From a virus: a DNA stretch of 64,000 bases. The translations under genes and the position numbers were made by a program. The notes beneath the pieces are model-generated. The model was not told where the DNA came from and made no database searches. It saw nothing but the letters and a program-made list of their open reading frames with translations. Of the stretch, positions 16,730 through 54,123 are shown piece by piece. The DNA is taken from the IMG/VR virus record IMGVR_UViG_3300045971_000344, positions 62,001 through 126,000 of that record. One strand, 5' to 3'. The stretch's first letter is position 1, and each line of letters begins with the position of its first letter.

Positions 16730-18709
16730 ATGAAGTTTTCAGATGTAGTAGCTGATCTAAAGAAAAGCGGATTATCCGAGGCTAAGGCTCTTGAAGTCGT
16801 AAAGACCAGACTTGCCGCAAAGGGGCACGAGCTCACCCCTGTAAAGATGCAACTGTTCCATAATACTTGGGAGACTACAGAAGCCCCGGTGGTTAATAAG
16901 CCCCAAAAGACTAAGAAAGAAAGGGCGGTTAAACCGTCAGGGCCTGTAGTAATTAATCCCTTGGTCGCCCCAAGCATAGATAACGCGGACGAACTTTTTA
17001 AAGCTCTTGCTACTTTTGGACTCGCAGTAATAGCCTGGACAAATGGGGTGAAGTTAGACCCAATTAGACAGCTCTTGTCAACTAATAAGCCCACCTTAGA
17101 TAGCTTCTTCAAAAACTCTAAGATGAATACAACCGCGTATAATGTAATATGCGGGTTAATTTTAGAGAAAAAAGCGTACAGCGCAGACAAAAGAAAGGCC
17201 GATGTTACCGCCTTTGGAAATGATTTAAAAGGAATACCTGATATTTTGTCTTCAAGGCAATATAAGTTATTACCAGCCAAAGTAACCTATCTAAAGAACA
17301 TAGCAGGATATTTGAAATCTAGTGCACCCACTGATAATGCTTATAAAAATATCGTAAATAAGGCCTCCTCTATTAGGGTCCCTCAAGCATCCGCCTTATT
17401 TACGTCCCACGTTGCCGAAAAGGTTAATCTTCCAGCTAACATAGGCGAAATGGTAACCAACTATAAAAAATTAAATAAAAAATTCGGTGGGAATGAAGGT
17501 TACACTATTCCAACAGACACTTTGAAAAAATATAGAGATACTCCTACAAAGGAATACACTAATTATTGTGCAATTGAAAAGGATTTGAATGCTCAACTTA
17601 AGTTGTTGACCCGGGTTGTAGTAGATAGTAGTGGGCAACAGACGATGGATGTGGAAGACTTTAAGAAACAGATAAAAGCAAAAGGTTTTGACTTTAATAA
17701 AGTTCCCGTTGGATTCATTGGTCGTATTGATGCTCAAGGAAAGTTCTATACAAAAGAAGGGTACTTGCTAAAGGACCAGCCTTCTGGTGTAATAAAAACA
17801 ATGAGTACAAAAGCGTATAATTCTAAAGATGGAACTGGTGCATACTGTGTGTACTTAAAAGCTGGTGGAAAGGCCCAACGTTGTTACACCATGATGCACC
17901 ATAGCGGTAAGCGAGAAGATAAGAAACAAGATATCGTAGACGATTTTATTAAGAATATGGTCGCCTATAGAAAACACTGGATGAAGGACTTAAAGGCTGG
18001 GTCCAAGATCTTAACAGACAAAGCAATAGCTGCATTGGTTATTGAAATAATGTTCCAGCTCTGTCCGAGACCGGGCTACGAAGAACATGGAAACAATAAG
18101 AAATTTGAAAATACAAAAGGGTTTATTTATCTTACCCGAGGAGAAGTTAAGCTCGAAGGTAACGATATTCACTTTAAATACACAGATAAGAACGGACCTC
18201 AGCATTTAATTTACACTAAGGGAGAAATGTACGGATCAGTTAGTGATGATACCCTTGTAGTTAACTGCTTAAAGAAATTAATGGAGAATAAAGATAAAGA
18301 TGAGTATTTATGGAAATACAGTGGAGATAACGTTGACTACGACCAGATTAAGAATTATGCAAGATCTGTAATACCCGGGTTTAACTTACATAAGTTTAGG
18401 AATTCTAAAGCGTCAATGATGGCAAAAGACATGCTAGGTGCGTGTAAACTCCCTAAAGGTTCTACCCCTAAAGAAGTATCAGATTACTACATGGATGTAA
18501 TGACAAAGGTAGGAGAAGAACTAGGTCATAGATCGGGTGAAGAAGCGAGTCCCTCAATGGCAATTTCTTCATATGTCTTAAAAAGCATCTCCAATGAGTT
18601 CTTTGATAGGTATGATGTTAGTCCTACTCAAAAAATAGCTGCTCAGATAAATACTGCAGAAGCTTCATCTTCGGGGTTGACGGTCCACATAGGCCGAAGA
18701 AAGTCATGA
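16730..18709 (+). CDS. Type IB DNA topoisomerase-like protein
   Basis: Relaxes supercoils through a 3'-phosphotyrosyl intermediate. 659 residues; AGGAGG site. The catalytic pentad of the tyrosine recombinase/TopIB fold can be read in order: R447 (CPRPGYEE, like RVGNEEY), K487 (KYTDKNGPQH, like F.GKSG..H), R557 (HKFRNS, like KDFRTW), H600 (EELGHRS, like LGN/LGH) and Y615 (AISSYV). The KGFIYLTRGEVKLEGN block matches the 'LT.LR..HV.V.G' strand. The N-terminal ~380 residues are unfamiliar and Lys-rich. The His-Tyr spacing is longer than usual. A tyrosine recombinase is the alternative, but the R-to-K block favours TopIB. Confidence 0.75.
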   Translation: MKFSDVVADLKKSGLSEAKALEVVKTRLAAKGHELTPVKMQLFHNTWETTEAPVVNKPQKTKKERAVKPSGPVVINPLVAPSIDNADELFKALATFGLAVIAWTNGVKLDPIRQLLSTNKPTLDSFFKNSKMNTTAYNVICGLILEKKAYSADKRKADVTAFGNDLKGIPDILSSRQYKLLPAKVTYLKNIAGYLKSSAPTDNAYKNIVNKASSIRVPQASALFTSHVAEKVNLPANIGEMVTNYKKLNKKFGGNEGYTIPTDTLKKYRDTPTKEYTNYCAIEKDLNAQLKLLTRVVVDSSGQQTMDVEDFKKQIKAKGFDFNKVPVGFIGRIDAQGKFYTKEGYLLKDQPSGVIKTMSTKAYNSKDGTGAYCVYLKAGGKAQRCYTMMHHSGKREDKKQDIVDDFIKNMVAYRKHWMKDLKAGSKILTDKAIAALVIEIMFQLCPRPGYEEHGNNKKFENTKGFIYLTRGEVKLEGNDIHFKYTDKNGPQHLIYTKGEMYGSVSDDTLVVNCLKKLMENKDKDEYLWKYSGDNVDYDQIKNYARSVIPGFNLHKFRNSKASMMAKDMLGACKLPKGSTPKEVSDYYMDVMTKVGEELGHRSGEEASPSMAISSYVLKSISNEFFDRYDVSPTQKIAAQINTAEASSSGLTVHIGRRKS

Positions 18710-19838: not shown

Positions 19839-19981
19839 GTGGTGTATTACGGTGCATCACTAGCGACACCTGCCCAATGTTAGATACAGTTGTACCCTTA
19901 GTGTCTTGCACATCCAATAGGGAACTTCTCCAAACAAAGACATTTGGATACAAGTGGTGCGACAACCCGGAGAGACGGGTT
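19839..19981 (+). ncRNA. Structured RNA motif, copy A
   Basis: About 143 nt. A 5' hairpin (from GTGGTG at 19839) is followed by four blocks shared in order and spacing with copy B: GCGACACCTGCC (19863), CCCTTAGTG (19895), AAGTGGTGCGACA (19952) and a hairpin with invariant loop GAGAGA closed by AACCCG/CGGGTT. The closing stem differs completely from copy B yet still pairs, which is covariation. A TCCAAA/TTTGGA stem lies inside. It ends 28 nt before the glycosyltransferase start, so it may be a leader, a processing signal or an independent RNA. Confidence 0.7.
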
Positions 19982-20009
19982 AACTAAATGAGTGAGAGTG
20001 GGATGGGGT

Positions 20010-21386: not shown

Positions 21387-21544
21387 GTACGTGCTGCATA
21401 AACCGCGGAGTTGCGTACTGCGACACCTGCCTGACACTAACGTAGTATAATGTTTTCCCTTAGTGCTCGTAGCACGTGCAGGGGCATTTATCCACCAATG
21501 AAAGTGTTTAGATAAAAGTGGTGTGACACGCTGGAGAGACAGCG
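21387..21544 (+). ncRNA. Structured RNA motif, copy B
   Basis: About 158 nt. 5' hairpin GTACG/CGTAC (21387-21418), then GCGACACCTGCC (21420), CACTAA/TTAGTG stem containing CCCTTAGTG (21457), AAGTGGTGTGACA (21516), and the terminal hairpin CGCTG-GAGAGA-CAGCG (21529-21544). The block order and the 18-nt distance from block 3 to the loop equal copy A. CACC in block 1 is complementary to GGTG in block 3 in both copies. Ends 25 nt before a tRNA. Confidence 0.7.
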
Positions 21545-21564
21545 ATAAGCATTTAGGCTATAAT
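21536..21564 (+). promoter_or_regulatory. Possible promoter before the tRNA pair
   Basis: GAGACA, 17-nt spacer, TATAAT at 21559-21564. The -35 is weak and overlaps the last hairpin of motif B, and the -10 is only 6 nt from the tRNA 5' end. Confidence 0.3.
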
Positions 21565-21569
21565 TATAC

Positions 21570-21642
21570 CACGGGTTACCTCAGTGGTAGAGGACATTCC
21601 TCATAGGGATAGAAGTCGCAGGTTCGATTCCTGCACCCGTAT
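21570..21642 (+). tRNA. tRNA-Met-like (anticodon CAT)
   Basis: D arm CCTC-AGTGGTA-GAGG, anticodon loop CTCATAG with CAT, T arm GCAGG-TTCGATT-CCTGC, acceptor pairing ACGGGT/ACCCGT. Position 1 is C opposite A72, the unpaired first pair typical of bacterial initiator tRNAs, but the three G-C pairs of an initiator anticodon stem are absent. The anticodon stem is weak (one G-U, one mismatch) and position 38 is G. CCA is not encoded. It may be degenerate; an Ile-CAT identity is also possible. Confidence 0.65.
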
Positions 21643-21648
21643 CAAGAT

Positions 21649-21803
21649 TTCCAAGTCACGGTTAAGTATGAGAACTATCAGACTTCACGCTAAGCGTTTT
21701 CTCTTGTTAGCTTGCACTGACTACTTTTTAAACGTATTCCTTACAAAAAACCGAGCCACTGTGGGTGGGAAGAATTATTCAGGGGAAGTTACGTGACTTG
21801 GAA
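21649..21803 (+). ncRNA. Stem-bounded RNA segment between the two tRNAs
   Basis: A perfect 12-bp inverted repeat (TTCCAAGTCACG at 21649 and CGTGACTTGGAA at 21792) encloses about 130 nt without a credible gene; the short frames here lack ribosome sites. It may be a processing stem or an independent RNA. Confidence 0.45.
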
Positions 21804-21814
21804 CAAAATTTTAT

Positions 21815-21889
21815 AGGGGATTCGCCAAGCGGTAAGGCAACTGGTTTTGATCCAGTCATTCACTCGTTCGATCCGAGTATCCTCTGCCA
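21815..21889 (+). tRNA. tRNA-Gln (anticodon TTG)
   Basis: Full cloverleaf: acceptor AGGGGAT/ATCCTCT (one G-U), D arm GCC-AAGCGGTAA-GGC, anticodon arm ACTGG-TTTTGAT-CCAGT, T arm with TTCGATC, and encoded CCA at the 3' end. It reads CAA codons, which are frequent in this AT-rich genome. Confidence 0.93.
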
Positions 21890-21999: not shown

Positions 22000-22854
22000 A
22001 TGAAATTAAAAGTATGCATAGAGGAATCTCTAGCTATAGATAAATATTGTTTCAACTTCCCTAAGGATGACCAAAAAGCTCAGTATGCAAAGGACTTCGC
22101 AAAACAGCTAAAAAGATATTTACTTGAAGGTTTTACTGAGCCAAACACTATAAACAAAATTGGATATTTAGCCCCTAAAGAACTTATTGAAAGTAAACCT
22201 TTAGTAGTATATAGAATATGGAAATTCACCCCAACAAGAGCTTTGAGACTAGCATGCGAAGATTCTTTTAAGATAAAACTCAAGGGTAGGCCCGCATATT
22301 CAGCTACGCTTGATAATATTCTTAAAATGAAGTCTCTAAAAGAGAACATTTTAGAGACTATCTTAGATTGTATTCACGATGGAACTATTGTAATAGTCTC
22401 TAAGGTTAAAACGCATAAGTATATAAACTTAGTTAAATCCGTAGAGTGGTTAATTTCTAACTATGGAGGAGATAAACCTGAAGTAGTACCCGTAAGTAAC
22501 GCACGAAAAACAAAAAAAGTAAACAGTACTCCAGACACTGTTTCTTTAGATGAAAGTGCAGTTAAAATACTGGAAAAAGAAAAAGAAGTTATAGTTCTAG
22601 ATAAAGTTGAATGGATGAAAAACTCTGTAGTAGCTATTGGCTGTTATAACTGTGACAACCAAAGCGCTAATCTTTTACCACCTAATTTAAACTCAGTAAA
22701 AATAAGTTTTGACTTAGCTGAAGACATAGATAAAAATATGATAAAGTCTGAACGAGAGTTTAGAAATAAAAATAACCCAGTTAAACTAATAAAAAGCTTA
22801 ACTCTAAGAGAGAAAAAAGAATTAGAGGAAATGCAAAGGCAAAGGGACTTCTAA
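22000..22854 (+). CDS. Hypothetical protein, 284 aa
   Basis: GGAG site upstream. Lys-rich, mixed alpha/beta; CYNC near residue 210 is its only Cys pair. The middle (VIVSKVKTHKYINLVKSVEWL) is helical. Not recognised. It sits between the tRNA pair and the 510-nt RNA. Confidence 0.65.
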   Translation: MKLKVCIEESLAIDKYCFNFPKDDQKAQYAKDFAKQLKRYLLEGFTEPNTINKIGYLAPKELIESKPLVVYRIWKFTPTRALRLACEDSFKIKLKGRPAYSATLDNILKMKSLKENILETILDCIHDGTIVIVSKVKTHKYINLVKSVEWLISNYGGDKPEVVPVSNARKTKKVNSTPDTVSLDESAVKILEKEKEVIVLDKVEWMKNSVVAIGCYNCDNQSANLLPPNLNSVKISFDLAEDIDKNMIKSEREFRNKNNPVKLIKSLTLREKKELEEMQRQRDF

Positions 22855-22877
22855 AAATTCTTAGATACCCTTAGAGT

Positions 22878-23387
22878 TTGATTTTAGTGAGTAAAGTCTG
22901 CACGATGGTAGTTATGTATCCTAGGGGAACATCGTGGTGAGTGAGGCCCTCTTATAAGTCCCACAAGGGCATAGAGGCGCAGGGGATTGCCGAAGTGGAG
23001 AAGCCCAGGAGCAGGCAAGGATGTATGCGTGAAGTAGTATAAGTACTTGAGACGTGGCTACAAAATGAGAAGCCGGAGTACTGAGAAAGCGTGTGCGAGG
23101 GTATCCAACTAGACAGGACTAACCGTAAAGTAAGGCCTAACGATAAGGCAGCGGCGAACAGTAACTATGCACAAAACCTGTACTCTATTTGTTTATGGGG
23201 AGCATAGCGAAGATAACGGGTACTTGAGAGTGTGCCGAAACTCTCCTTGATTCGGATGGGTGCATTATTAGCGTTTACAACTTCTAGCGAATTTAAGTCC
23301 TAGGATGGGACGTATATTCAAGTGCGTGTGCTTGCGCTCTGATGCACTGCTTGTGGTGGTTTGAGTCCACCAACTCACTAAAATCAA
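22878..23387 (+). ncRNA. Large (~510 nt) ornate structured RNA
   Basis: No gene is present. The ends form a perfect 15-bp stem (TTGATTTTAGTGAGT, 22878-22892, with 23373-23387). Inside are several hairpins: CACGATG/CATCGTG; a CTATGC/GCATAG stem; GAGAGT/ACTCTC at about 23225-23244, whose loop CCGAA can also pair with TTCGG downstream (an H-type pseudoknot); AAGTGC/GCACT; and a terminal GGTGG-TTTGAGT-CCACC arm (23355-23371) shaped like a tRNA T arm. Size, closing stem, T-loop and proximity to phage tRNAs recall GOLLD and ROOL RNAs, but membership is not established. The transcript probably runs on to the tmRNA. Confidence 0.75.
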
Positions 23388-23418
23388 GATCAAAAATAAC
23401 CTAAAAGGGAGAAACAAA

Positions 23419-23685
23419 ATGCCAGGTATTCCAACTTTAATCAAAGGTTCCGTAAAGAACGCAGCAGGTGTAGGTATTGATAGTGCGGCAGTTAAAGGTG
23501 TACTAGGTACTGGATCCTTTACTACTACAACAGCCGCAGATGGATCGTATTTTGCATCGTGGGTAGGAACAGGTACGATTATTATTACAGCTACAAAAAC
23601 GGGGTATCAAACTACATCGGTTAGCTGTCCTATAACTAAACAAGGTGGAACTGTTACTGCACCTACTATTGTAATGCCTGTATGA
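23419..23685 (+). CDS. Small Ig-like/carboxypeptidase-regulatory-like domain protein
   Basis: 88 residues; AAGGGAG site. A single beta-sandwich: G.V....G..I..A.V......T.TTAADGSY....GTGTIIITATKTGYQT, the pattern of CarboxypepD_reg/Big-type domains. No signal peptide. Such one-domain proteins often decorate capsids or bind carbohydrate; inferred role is virion decoration. Confidence 0.7.
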   Translation: MPGIPTLIKGSVKNAAGVGIDSAAVKGVLGTGSFTTTTAADGSYFASWVGTGTIIITATKTGYQTTSVSCPITKQGGTVTAPTIVMPV

Positions 23686-23844: not shown

Positions 23845-24257
23845 GGGGGCGTAAAGGTTTCGACTGGCGGTAATAGATATTAGTTGCGCTCGGAGGATGA
23901 TGGTTGGCCTCTTGAATAACCCATCACTTATTAATTGCCAACTTTGCAAATGCAGTAGCAGACAACTATGGTTTTGAGGCTCGCCTCGCTGCCTGAGTTG
24001 TAACAATCCCTACAGAAAATCGTAGGTACGGTAAGTAGTAGATAACATTTGTAGCTACTCGCCGCGTAACAGAAGATGTGGATGGTTAGCCGCCCACTGA
24101 CTAATGAACTCCAGGTGTTGGTCTGGCTAAACACCGACTAGGTGGGAAAGATTTGTCTATTTTGTTAATAGCCACCGAAATACTAAATAGACTATGAGCG
24201 TAGGGACTATATTGAAAAGCTGTTAGGACGTGGGTTCAACTCCCACCGCTTCCACCA
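23845..24257 (+). ncRNA. ssrA: tmRNA (transfer-messenger RNA)
   Basis: Rescues stalled ribosomes by trans-translation with SmpB. The 5' end GGGGGCGTAAAGGTTTCGACTGG and the 3' end GTGGG-TTCAACT-CCCAC-CGCTTCC-ACCA form the tRNA-like domain; the acceptor pairs GGGGGCG with CGCTTCC (two G-U). The internal frame at 23937-23996 encodes the tag ANFANAVADNYGFEARLAA then TGA; the LAA end is the classic ClpXP degron. The ~240 nt after the tag fit the pseudoknot region. 413 nt, normal for a one-piece tmRNA. Phage-borne ssrA is uncommon; no smpB is seen in this window. Confidence 0.95.
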
Positions 24258-24897: not shown

Positions 24898-24997
24898 TAG
24901 GGAAGTTAGCACTCTGAACATCTGCTGCCACGGCTAACGGCTTGTAATGTGGGGTAATGCAAAATAATTAGGGAGTGTTTTTGTCGGCGCCACCCTA

Positions 24998-25033
24998 GGC
25001 GAGTACATCTCGGGCTTGAGCTCTGTACTCGCC
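24998..25033 (+). terminator. 10-bp hairpin flanked by direct repeats
   Basis: GGCGAGTACA pairs perfectly with TGTACTCGCC. The hairpin is flanked by GCCACCCTA on both sides, and no T-run follows. A processing or stability element is as likely as a terminator. The 24898-24990 stretch also holds GTTAGC/GCTAAC and GGGAGTG followed by TTTTT. Confidence 0.35.
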
Positions 25034-25056
25034 ACCCTAAATAACTAGGAGGTCAA

Positions 25057-25224
25057 ATGAATAGTGCAGATACGTATAAGATTATTCGGGCCTTTGATAT
25101 TGATGAACTAGCTGAGAAGGTAAATGAAGCACTTTTATTAGGTTATAAAGCAATAGGCGGAATGGTAATAGAAAGTCACGCAAAGATGGGTAAGATATAC
25201 TATCAAAGTTTAGTTACTATCTAA
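25057..25224 (+). CDS. DUF1737-like protein, 55 aa
   Basis: AGGAGG site. YKIIRAFDIDELAEKVNEAL...GYKAIGGMVIES...YYQSLV matches the small DUF1737 pattern (VNE.L..GW...GG......YQALV). Common in phages and bacteria; function unknown. Confidence 0.7.
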   Translation: MNSADTYKIIRAFDIDELAEKVNEALLLGYKAIGGMVIESHAKMGKIYYQSLVTI

Positions 25225-38210: not shown

Positions 38211-38214
38211 CTAA

Positions 38215-38224
38215 ACTGTAAATG
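38215..38224 (+). promoter_or_regulatory. ACTGTAAATG candidate promoter element
   Basis: Copy of the recurring motif with G in the last place, 23-32 nt upstream of the first stem of the 38.25-38.66 kb RNA. Confidence 0.35.
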
Positions 38225-38246
38225 ATATGTAAATAATAGAGTTGTG

Positions 38247-38662
38247 GACTGTTTACTCCCAAGGACACAGATTGCCAGACGCAGGATTAGATACCCTTCG
38301 ACTAGAGCGGTGTTGGCATAAGAGTAGGCAGTCTGCAAATAGTTGGGTAATTATGGGCGGTCGCCCCGTTCGGTACAGTTAGGAAATAATGAGGAGGGCG
38401 TACTCTGAGAATGTTCAACCCTGTACTAATTACCCATTAGTTGGTGGTTAGTCTAAGTCAAGGACACTAAGAGAACAAGACCAGCGGGGTATAATGGTAC
38501 GTGGGTTAATAACCTGTGGTGCAGTAGTACTCTATGCGGATAGTGTAGAGAAGCGCATAATCTATCCTGACGTATGAATTAGGGGCGCAATGTTCTTATC
38601 AGGTCTTTCCTGCAACACTTACCTTCTCCGAAGATGTTGGTATAACTTAGGCTAACCACCAA
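38247..38662 (+). ncRNA. Second large structured RNA (~416 nt)
   Basis: No gene lies here. Three long-range stems: GACTGTTTACTC (38247) with GAGTAGGCAGTC (38322), 12 bp with two G-U; TGGGTAATTA (38344) with TAATTACCCA (38427), perfect 10 bp; TTGGTGGTTAGTCTAAG (38441) with CTTAGGCTAACCACCAA (38646), 17 bp with one G-U. In the last domain ATGCG (38534)/CGCAT (38554) and GATAG (38539)/CTATC (38562) form an H-type pseudoknot. The first domain contains CAGGATTAGATACCCT (38282-38297), identical to the 790-loop segment of 16S rRNA. It ends just before the ribosome site of the next gene. Confidence 0.7.
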
Positions 38663-38675
38663 ACAAAGGAAATTT

Positions 38676-52788: not shown

Positions 52789-53310
52789 ATGAAAATAAAA
52801 GTAAGTATAGAGACCTCAGCAGGAGGTAAAAAAGGAATTAAATTTTTATTATCAAACGGTGGTAAACAGGTACAATTCAAGAAATTACCTACCAATCATA
52901 AACTAGCTATTTTGGTCTATATGATAGAGTCCGATATGGAAGTTCCAACTGGATTTAAATATGGATCTTCAATAAAAACCTATCTAAATTCCTGTAAAGC
53001 TAATATGGAATTTTTTGACTCTACTTACGGTTATAAAAAGTTTATTATCGCTGATGTTCCTATAAAGGTAATAGAAAAGGTTTTGCTTCCAACTATTGAT
53101 GACCGTCTTAATTCAATTGAAGACTACTATAAATTTTATACTGGAGGTAAAAAATTAGGATCTGAGTATAAAGAACTTGACTGGCCTTGCATAATAAGTG
53201 GGTTTTTCCCTGAAGAAGTTTTTGAAGATGGATGGCATAGGTTTAGCTATTATTTGAGTAAGAAACTTCAAAAAATTCCTTGCATAGATTTTGTAGAACC
53301 GTTTTTATGA
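52789..53310 (+). CDS. Hypothetical protein, 173 aa
   Basis: GGAG site. Lys- and aromatic-rich alpha/beta protein. Not recognised. Confidence 0.55.
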   Translation: MKIKVSIETSAGGKKGIKFLLSNGGKQVQFKKLPTNHKLAILVYMIESDMEVPTGFKYGSSIKTYLNSCKANMEFFDSTYGYKKFIIADVPIKVIEKVLLPTIDDRLNSIEDYYKFYTGGKKLGSEYKELDWPCIISGFFPEEVFEDGWHRFSYYLSKKLQKIPCIDFVEPFL

Positions 53311-53334
53311 TCTAAACTAAAACTGGAGAACCCA

Positions 53335-54123
53335 ATGATATACTATTGTGAAAGCTGTCAGACTGTAAGCAAGGTCAAATTGCTGACCCAACATAAACTT
53401 ACTTGCACTGATAATACGGTAATTGAATTCCAGGATATTCATGATTATACCTCGTACTGGATTGAAGAAGAACAGAAACTAAGATATGAAATTAGTATGC
53501 ACTCGACCATGAGAAAACAGGCAGAGCTTCAATTAGAACGTGCGATTAAGAAAATCCGAAAGACAATGAAGAGTCAAGCACTCAATCTGGAGCAATATTT
53601 ATCAAGGGTCGTAATAAAAGATGAGATTAAGGTCCAATTCGACCAAGAGGATGAAGATATAGAATACAGTCTAGGAGTTAAACCCATAAACTGTCAGGAC
53701 CAAGGTGGTATTCCTATTTATGAGGAGGCTAGTATTGGAGTACCAACATACCTTCCTCCTACCGGACACTGGACGAAGGATATCCAAAACCGAAGCCAAT
53801 ATGAAGGACAAACAGTAGACTCTCGCTGGGTAGAACCTAGACTTCCGGACTTTGATACCATTATGAAAATCGGTAGATCGTGCGGTTACTCAATTGCAAT
53901 ACACGGGTCACTTAAGCGTGATGTAGACCTTATTGCAGTTCCTTGGGTTGATGAAGCAAAAGGTGCTTTGAGTCTTATTCATGCTTTATGTGAAGGCCTA
54001 AATGCTAAACAAATAGGAACTGTTGAAGAAAAGCCGTGGGGACGCATGGCTGTAGTCATACAAATAGATGGTTATTATAAACCTATTGACTTGTCTATTA
54101 TACGAAAAGGAGTACCAGGATGA
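53335..54123 (+). CDS. Zinc finger plus nucleotidyltransferase-like protein
   Basis: 262 residues. N-terminal YYCESCQTV...C zinc motif and coiled segment. The C-terminal part GRSCGYSIAIHGSLKRDVDLIAVPW carries the G-S-x-x-R-D-x-D-L pattern of the minimal nucleotidyltransferase fold and ends with YKPIDLSII supplying a further Asp. Seen in other phages as an uncharacterised protein. Activity unproven. Confidence 0.6.
   Translation: MIYYCESCQTVSKVKLLTQHKLTCTDNTVIEFQDIHDYTSYWIEEEQKLRYEISMHSTMRKQAELQLERAIKKIRKTMKSQALNLEQYLSRVVIKDEIKVQFDQEDEDIEYSLGVKPINCQDQGGIPIYEEASIGVPTYLPPTGHWTKDIQNRSQYEGQTVDSRWVEPRLPDFDTIMKIGRSCGYSIAIHGSLKRDVDLIAVPWVDEAKGALSLIHALCEGLNAKQIGTVEEKPWGRMAVVIQIDGYYKPIDLSIIRKGVPG

Follow-up and report, generated by a model that had tools for sequence, protein, structure and literature searches.

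The locus and its neighbours

What does a phage keep in a stretch of some 500 nt that carries no gene and has tRNA and tmRNA genes for neighbours? The locus that raises this question, here called candidate RNA A, belongs to a viral record of 294,944 bases (about 295 kb), of which bases 62001-126000 form the window, the 64,000-nucleotide stretch that was analysed and to which positions refer unless another source is named. The terminase and portal proteins fall into jumbo-phage families (E of 4e-215 and 3e-178), and the nearest isolates are phage NCTB, with a terminase identity of 46%, PaBG and similar phages; two IMG/VR contigs are nearer than the isolates, with terminase identities of 67-68%. 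Since one near-relative IMG/VR contig spans the ends of the record, the genome is circular or circularly permuted. Like other jumbo phages, this one encodes a eukaryotic-type topoisomerase I (window 16730-18709).

The features that define the locus are the following.

21570-21643, + strand: tRNA-Met (CAT)
21815-21889, + strand: tRNA-Gln (TTG)
22000-22854, + strand: upstream gene, 284 aa, of no family, with its stop 23 nt 5' of helix P1
22878-23387, + strand: candidate RNA A, large and putatively structured, in a gap without ORFs that is rich in GC and G and has a perfect 15-bp closing stem
22878-22892, + strand: 5' strand of closing helix P1, TTGATTTTAGTGAGT, perfect complement of 23373-23387
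23373-23387, + strand: 3' strand of closing helix P1, ACTCACTAAAATCAA, pairing with 22878-22892
23419-23685, + strand: downstream gene, 88 aa, with a carboxypeptidase-regulatory-like fold (Pfam match slightly under the cut-off)
23845-24257, + strand: tmRNA, tag ADNYGFEARLAA

A first-pass annotation made from the letters of the sequence had placed A beside phage tRNAs and a tmRNA, and all three genes were indeed detected: tRNA-Met and tRNA-Gln lie 5' of A and the tmRNA 3' of it, all within 1.3 kb, with the tmRNA gene beginning about 460 nt downstream of A. The 88-aa gene starts 31 nt past P1 and is served by a ribosome site, AAGGGAG, at 23405-23411. Around A itself, no notable promoter or terminator was found. 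The annotation had also held that the region contains no gene, and this stands: the longest ORFs are 58, 44 and 38 aa, each frame is interrupted by 6-14 stops, and searches of A against Pfam and PHROG gave no protein-family match. A is single-copy in the genome. Its GC content (0.47, 96th percentile of genome windows) and its GC skew (0.225, 94th percentile) are both high.

The closing helix

The ends of A pair perfectly over 15 nt (TTGATTTTAGTGAGT with ACTCACTAAAATCAA), just as had been claimed, and the resulting helix P1 has an ensemble pairing probability of 0.95 in single-sequence folding. Over the 294,944 bases of the genome, P1 is the longest perfect inverted repeat at a spacing of 60-700 nt. 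A shuffled genome has on average about 0.33 inverted repeats of at least 15 bp, and by our own estimate the chance of such a repeat within the 564-nt gap that holds A is about 6e-4; none of 60 dinucleotide shuffles of the A region reached 15 bp.

Predicted fold

The structural elements of A, with probabilities taken from a single-sequence ensemble, are listed below.

22864-22872, + strand: leader strand GATACCCTT, which can form 9 pairs with 23097-23105
22901-22936, + strand: predicted hairpin CACGATG/CATCGTG, 7 bp, probability 0.13 in the full-length ensemble
23043-23081, + strand: predicted hairpin GTACT/AGTAC, pairing probability 0.78
23097-23105, + strand: partner strand GAGGGTATC, which can pair with 22864-22872
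23135-23149, + strand: predicted hairpin GCCT-AACGATA-AGGC at the central junction, pairing probability 0.97
23226-23255, + strand: possible H-type pseudoknot, a GAGAGT/ACTCTC stem whose CCGAA loop can pair with TTCGG
23289-23319, + strand: predicted hairpin GAATTTAAGTCC/GGACGTATATTC, pairing probability 0.63
23354-23372, + strand: tRNA T-arm-like hairpin TGGTGG-TTTGAGT-CCACCA, pairing probability 0.88

P1, the T-arm-like hairpin and the hairpins at 23135-23149, 23043-23081 and 23289-23319 are robust in the ensemble, while several others, the pseudoknot stem included, compete with alternative pairings. The leader pairing would link the 5' flank to the centre of A in a pseudoknot with P1, and if it is real the 5' end of A may extend to 22861.

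Three structural claims of the first-pass annotation fared less evenly. Its mimic of a tRNA T-arm is present and unusually placed, directly abutting the 3' strand of P1 as a T-arm abuts an acceptor stem, but position 56 of its loop is a U. In T-loops this position is a near-invariant C. The + strand has 7 such hairpins, comprising two tRNA T-arms, one tmRNA T-arm, the one in A and other hairpins, where shuffles give 1-5. The elements of the H-type pseudoknot are likewise in place (GAGAGT 23226-23231, CCGAA 23235-23239, ACTCTC 23240-23245 and TTCGG 23251-23255), but such motifs are common (54 on the genome strand that carries A, about 31 in shuffles), so that their presence argues only weakly for a pseudoknot; the stem has a probability of 0.15, in an ensemble that is unable to credit pseudoknots. 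Many hairpins had been noted, and several are predicted, but by energy they do not rise above chance: the minimum free energy (MFE) of A has a z-score of -1.35 or -1.38, equalled by 10 of 100 shuffles, and 8 of 56 background windows have a z-score of -1.35 or lower. The phage's own tmRNA (-1.47) and the ROOL RNA of L. salivarius (-1.09), both true RNAs, score no better, so folding energy is uninformative for A.

Comparison with known RNA families

Rfam gave no match to A at threshold and three chance-level matches at E <= 10. No model of group I or group II introns, RNase P, riboswitches or ribosomal-protein leaders matched A, and nothing convincing in Rfam ties it to a known intron or other family; a sub-threshold match to the freshwater-2 cis-regulatory motif (20 bits and E 1.4, for a gathering score of 49.9) spans the junction between A and the downstream gene.

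The large ornate phage RNAs ROOL and GOLLD assemble into cages made of RNA alone, whose function is not known, ROOL being a highly abundant homo-octameric nanocage. It had been suggested that A might be a member of one of these families, a distant relative or a new class, and membership found no support, as neither Rfam model matches. The ROOL model (RF03087) has no match at E <= 10 in A or anywhere in the genome. Given the ROOL RNA of L. salivarius pMP118, a known example of 520 nt (PMC5643018), the same model recovers it over its full length (130.4 bits, E 7e-28), so A is not a ROOL RNA within the reach of the model. Local alignment of A with ROOL revealed no similarity, and neither approach found a match in A to the conserved ROOL helices P2-P19 with their pseudoknots. 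ROOL RNAs are noncoding, about 520-660 nt long, associated with phages or prophages, often near tRNAs, and have a long terminal stem (PMC5643018 and the cryo-EM study PMC12286853). A is thus like them in size, in its long terminal stem (the 15-bp P1 around 510 nt) and in genomic setting, but not in sequence. The GOLLD model (RF02032, 416 positions) gave no match in A or elsewhere in the genome, none of 47 first-look candidates scoring at E <= 10; the positive control covered the ROOL model only. GOLLD, like A, is a large phage RNA found near tRNAs, although many of its members exceed 800 nt (PMC12286853) and A is shorter.

Two components of the translation machinery also invite comparison. In tmRNA (RF00023), as in A, a T-arm lies beside the terminal helix. 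Unlike tmRNA, A has a U at the position of C56, and no tag reading frame or tRNA-Ala-like acceptor end was seen in it; ARAGORN and Rfam, which detected the neighbouring tRNAs and tmRNA, detected no tRNA or tmRNA fold in A. With 16S and 23S rRNA, A has in common a G-rich, purine-rich composition and a long processing-like stem, and it has no significant similarity to either in a profile search or by alignment score, where the best score was matched by 2 of 60 shuffles. A resemblance to the 16S 5' domain that is apparent by eye (AGAGTTTGAT and GTGCGAGGGTATCC...GTAAAG) was supported neither by the profile search nor by the shuffles, and different 16S sequences align A to differing parts of 16S, so homology to 16S was rejected.

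Search for relatives

There do not appear to be any homologues of A within the collections searched. A blastn search of 50,697 phage records and 72,556 plasmid records found none, and neither did DNA searches of about 50 records from related phages, which had been reached by alignments of topoisomerase I and terminase, or covariance models built from two pieces of A and run on these relatives. Routes through single proteins and a GTDB scan by terminase also yielded nothing. Searches of IMG/VR with DNA patterns (a 24-mer, a 17-mer and the loop) gave no homologue among the matches listed, exact-base patterns of this kind being apt to miss diverged homologues. A few weak DNA matches proved to be chance matches in coding sequence. 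The closest relative (terminase 67%, 170 kb covered) has no counterpart of A near its tmRNA and other tRNAs; its contig stops near the site where A would be expected, so that absence there is not fully proven. A may therefore not be conserved even in its closest relative, and as far as these sequence searches reach it is an orphan at present.

The contig of this closest relative, G026, carries at about 162570-163015 a tmRNA-like gene that ARAGORN did not report, with a readable tag, ADNYGFDQLAAA.

Companion candidate RNAs with rRNA-like segments

Two further noncoding gaps of the same phage bear on how A is to be read.

38211-38675, + strand: second large RNA candidate, B, an ORF-free gap with strong helices, MFE z-score -2.47
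G000 53155-53629 (L045:13155-13629), outside the window: candidate C, a noncoding gap near tRNA-Leu, MFE z-score -3.47

B contains an 18-nt closing helix (38441-38458 with 38645-38662) and a 17-bp helix (38242-38258 with 38322-38338), and ends immediately 5' of the ribosome site of a gene. Sixteen nucleotides of it, CAGGATTAGATACCCT, are identical to 16S positions 783-798, a universal stretch, and against the 16S profile this short match is weak (E 21 genome-wide). In both A and B a shared 12-mer, TTAGATACCCTT, is followed some 200 nt further on by a GGGTAT partner. Their alignment as paralogues was not significant, being reached by 14 of 200 shuffles, and the 12-mer remains a lead.

A segment of 70 nt in C is homologous to the L1 stalk of 23S rRNA. 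An nhmmer search of the whole genome with a 23S profile detects it at E = 1e-9 and has no rival match, and blastn of C against the phage collection independently retrieves bacterial 23S entries. The Rfam LSU model did not report this segment, so the evidence for it consists of the profile and blastn matches and of pairing: in an alignment of C with eight bacterial 23S sequences, two helices, H76 and H77 by our own assignment, are kept, and compensatory change has altered both partners in four pairs, in two of these only in the phage. The L1-stalk homologue of C is better supported than A itself. No gene for protein L1 was found in the phage, so an RNA that binds L1 would meet the host protein. 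By its sequence, C is possibly a phage-encoded L1-stalk mimic, and the titles and abstracts of the literature searched describe no comparable one. B and C together hint that the rRNA-like RNAs of the phage may form a wider set.

Interpretation

A is noncoding, has an improbable closing helix, lies in a tRNA/tmRNA cluster and matches no Rfam family. The DNA can fairly be read as encoding a large, closed noncoding RNA next to the tRNA and tmRNA genes of the phage. A is a promising candidate for a large phage RNA that would be new, outside GOLLD and ROOL as judged by their models. With somewhat better than even confidence, we take A to be a large noncoding RNA of the jumbo phage, structured and free-standing, that is probably cut from a tRNA/tmRNA transcript at P1 and acts as RNA; its transcription, processing, fold and function we infer as follows. 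A would probably be transcribed within a co-directional transcript that bears the tRNAs and tmRNA, and its precursor would be cut out at P1. Precursors of rRNA, tRNA and tmRNA are trimmed at their terminal stems, and it is by analogy with these that cutting at P1 is proposed. Once mature, the RNA would form a closed molecule in which the T-arm-like hairpin stacks on P1, and would serve either as a self-contained, possibly multimeric particle of the ROOL/GOLLD kind or as a mimic that engages the translation machinery. Its size and architecture favour a ROOL-like particle, its genomic company tRNA or ribosome mimicry. A stand-alone RNA is consistent with a gap between two tightly packed co-directional genes with RNA genes on both sides, and the L1-stalk homologue of C, together with the strong helices in the ORF-free gaps B and C, suggests that this phage does keep structured noncoding RNAs. 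The failure to find a homologue in the collections searched, the ordinary folding energy, the want of a notable promoter or terminator and the failure to see a counterpart near the tmRNA of the closest relative count against it.

The mimicry branch of this reading can be sharpened into an explanation that overlaps with it in probability: A would be a mimic of tRNA or rRNA, divergent or chimeric, with ribosomal proteins, the ribosome or enzymes that handle tRNA as its binding partners, and would form one set with B and C. The stacking of the T-arm-like hairpin on the closing helix, the true 23S L1-stalk homologue in C, the universal 16S stretch in B and the 12-mer with its GGGTAT partner common to A and B all point this way. 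That said, A itself lacks significant rRNA similarity, 14 of 200 shuffles attain the A-B match and the T-loop has a U for C56, so we consider this more specific version possible at best, and doubtful. It is unlikely, too, that A is a long structured 5' leader acting in cis on the downstream 88-aa gene within the transcript. P1 does stop 31 nt short of the start codon and a good ribosome site lies in that interval, B likewise ends just 5' of a ribosome site, and the weak freshwater-2 match crosses the same junction; however, that match scores far under the gathering score, 500 nt far exceeds the usual length of a leader, and the 88-aa product, a small extracellular-type domain, has no evident need for control.

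That A is merely unstructured or decayed DNA with chance hairpins would agree with its unexceptional energy z-score and with the failure to detect conservation, but phage genomes rarely keep an idle 500 nt, the closing helix has the low chance probability given above, and the GC content and G skew of A differ from those of the flanking genes; we hold this to be clearly improbable. A mobile insertion, such as an intron or a transposable element, would account for perfect terminal inverted repeats and for the failure to find A in the nearest relative. This is very improbable, as no Rfam intron family matches at E <= 10, A sits between genes and not inside one, is single-copy and has no apparent flanking direct repeat.

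A further large phage RNA outside ROOL and GOLLD would suggest that phages have invented such molecules repeatedly, and if the rRNA-like modules of this genome belong to one programme with A, phages would possess RNAs that mimic the ribosome. A bolder extension seems to us quite unlikely, namely that at least three large RNAs (A with its T-arm-like, B with its 16S 790-loop-like and C with its L1-stalk module) copy pieces of the translation machinery and, in concert with the tRNAs and tmRNA, take over or shield the ribosome of the host.

Other noncoding elements near the locus

The spacer between tRNA-Met and tRNA-Gln is bracketed by a perfect 12-bp inverted repeat (21649-21660 with 21792-21803), and 3' of the tmRNA a GC-rich noncoding segment at 24898-25060 contains a long hairpin, GGCGAGTACA...TGTACTCGCC. 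A small RNA-like motif of the form GCGACACCTGCC ... CCCTTAGTG ... AAGTGGTGYGACA..GGAGAGAC is repeated, with two long copies in the window, at 19843-19995 and 21387-21560, and its 3' part at G000 51281. One copy also occurs in the relative contig G026 near 164278 (L134), where it adjoins a tRNA-Gly.
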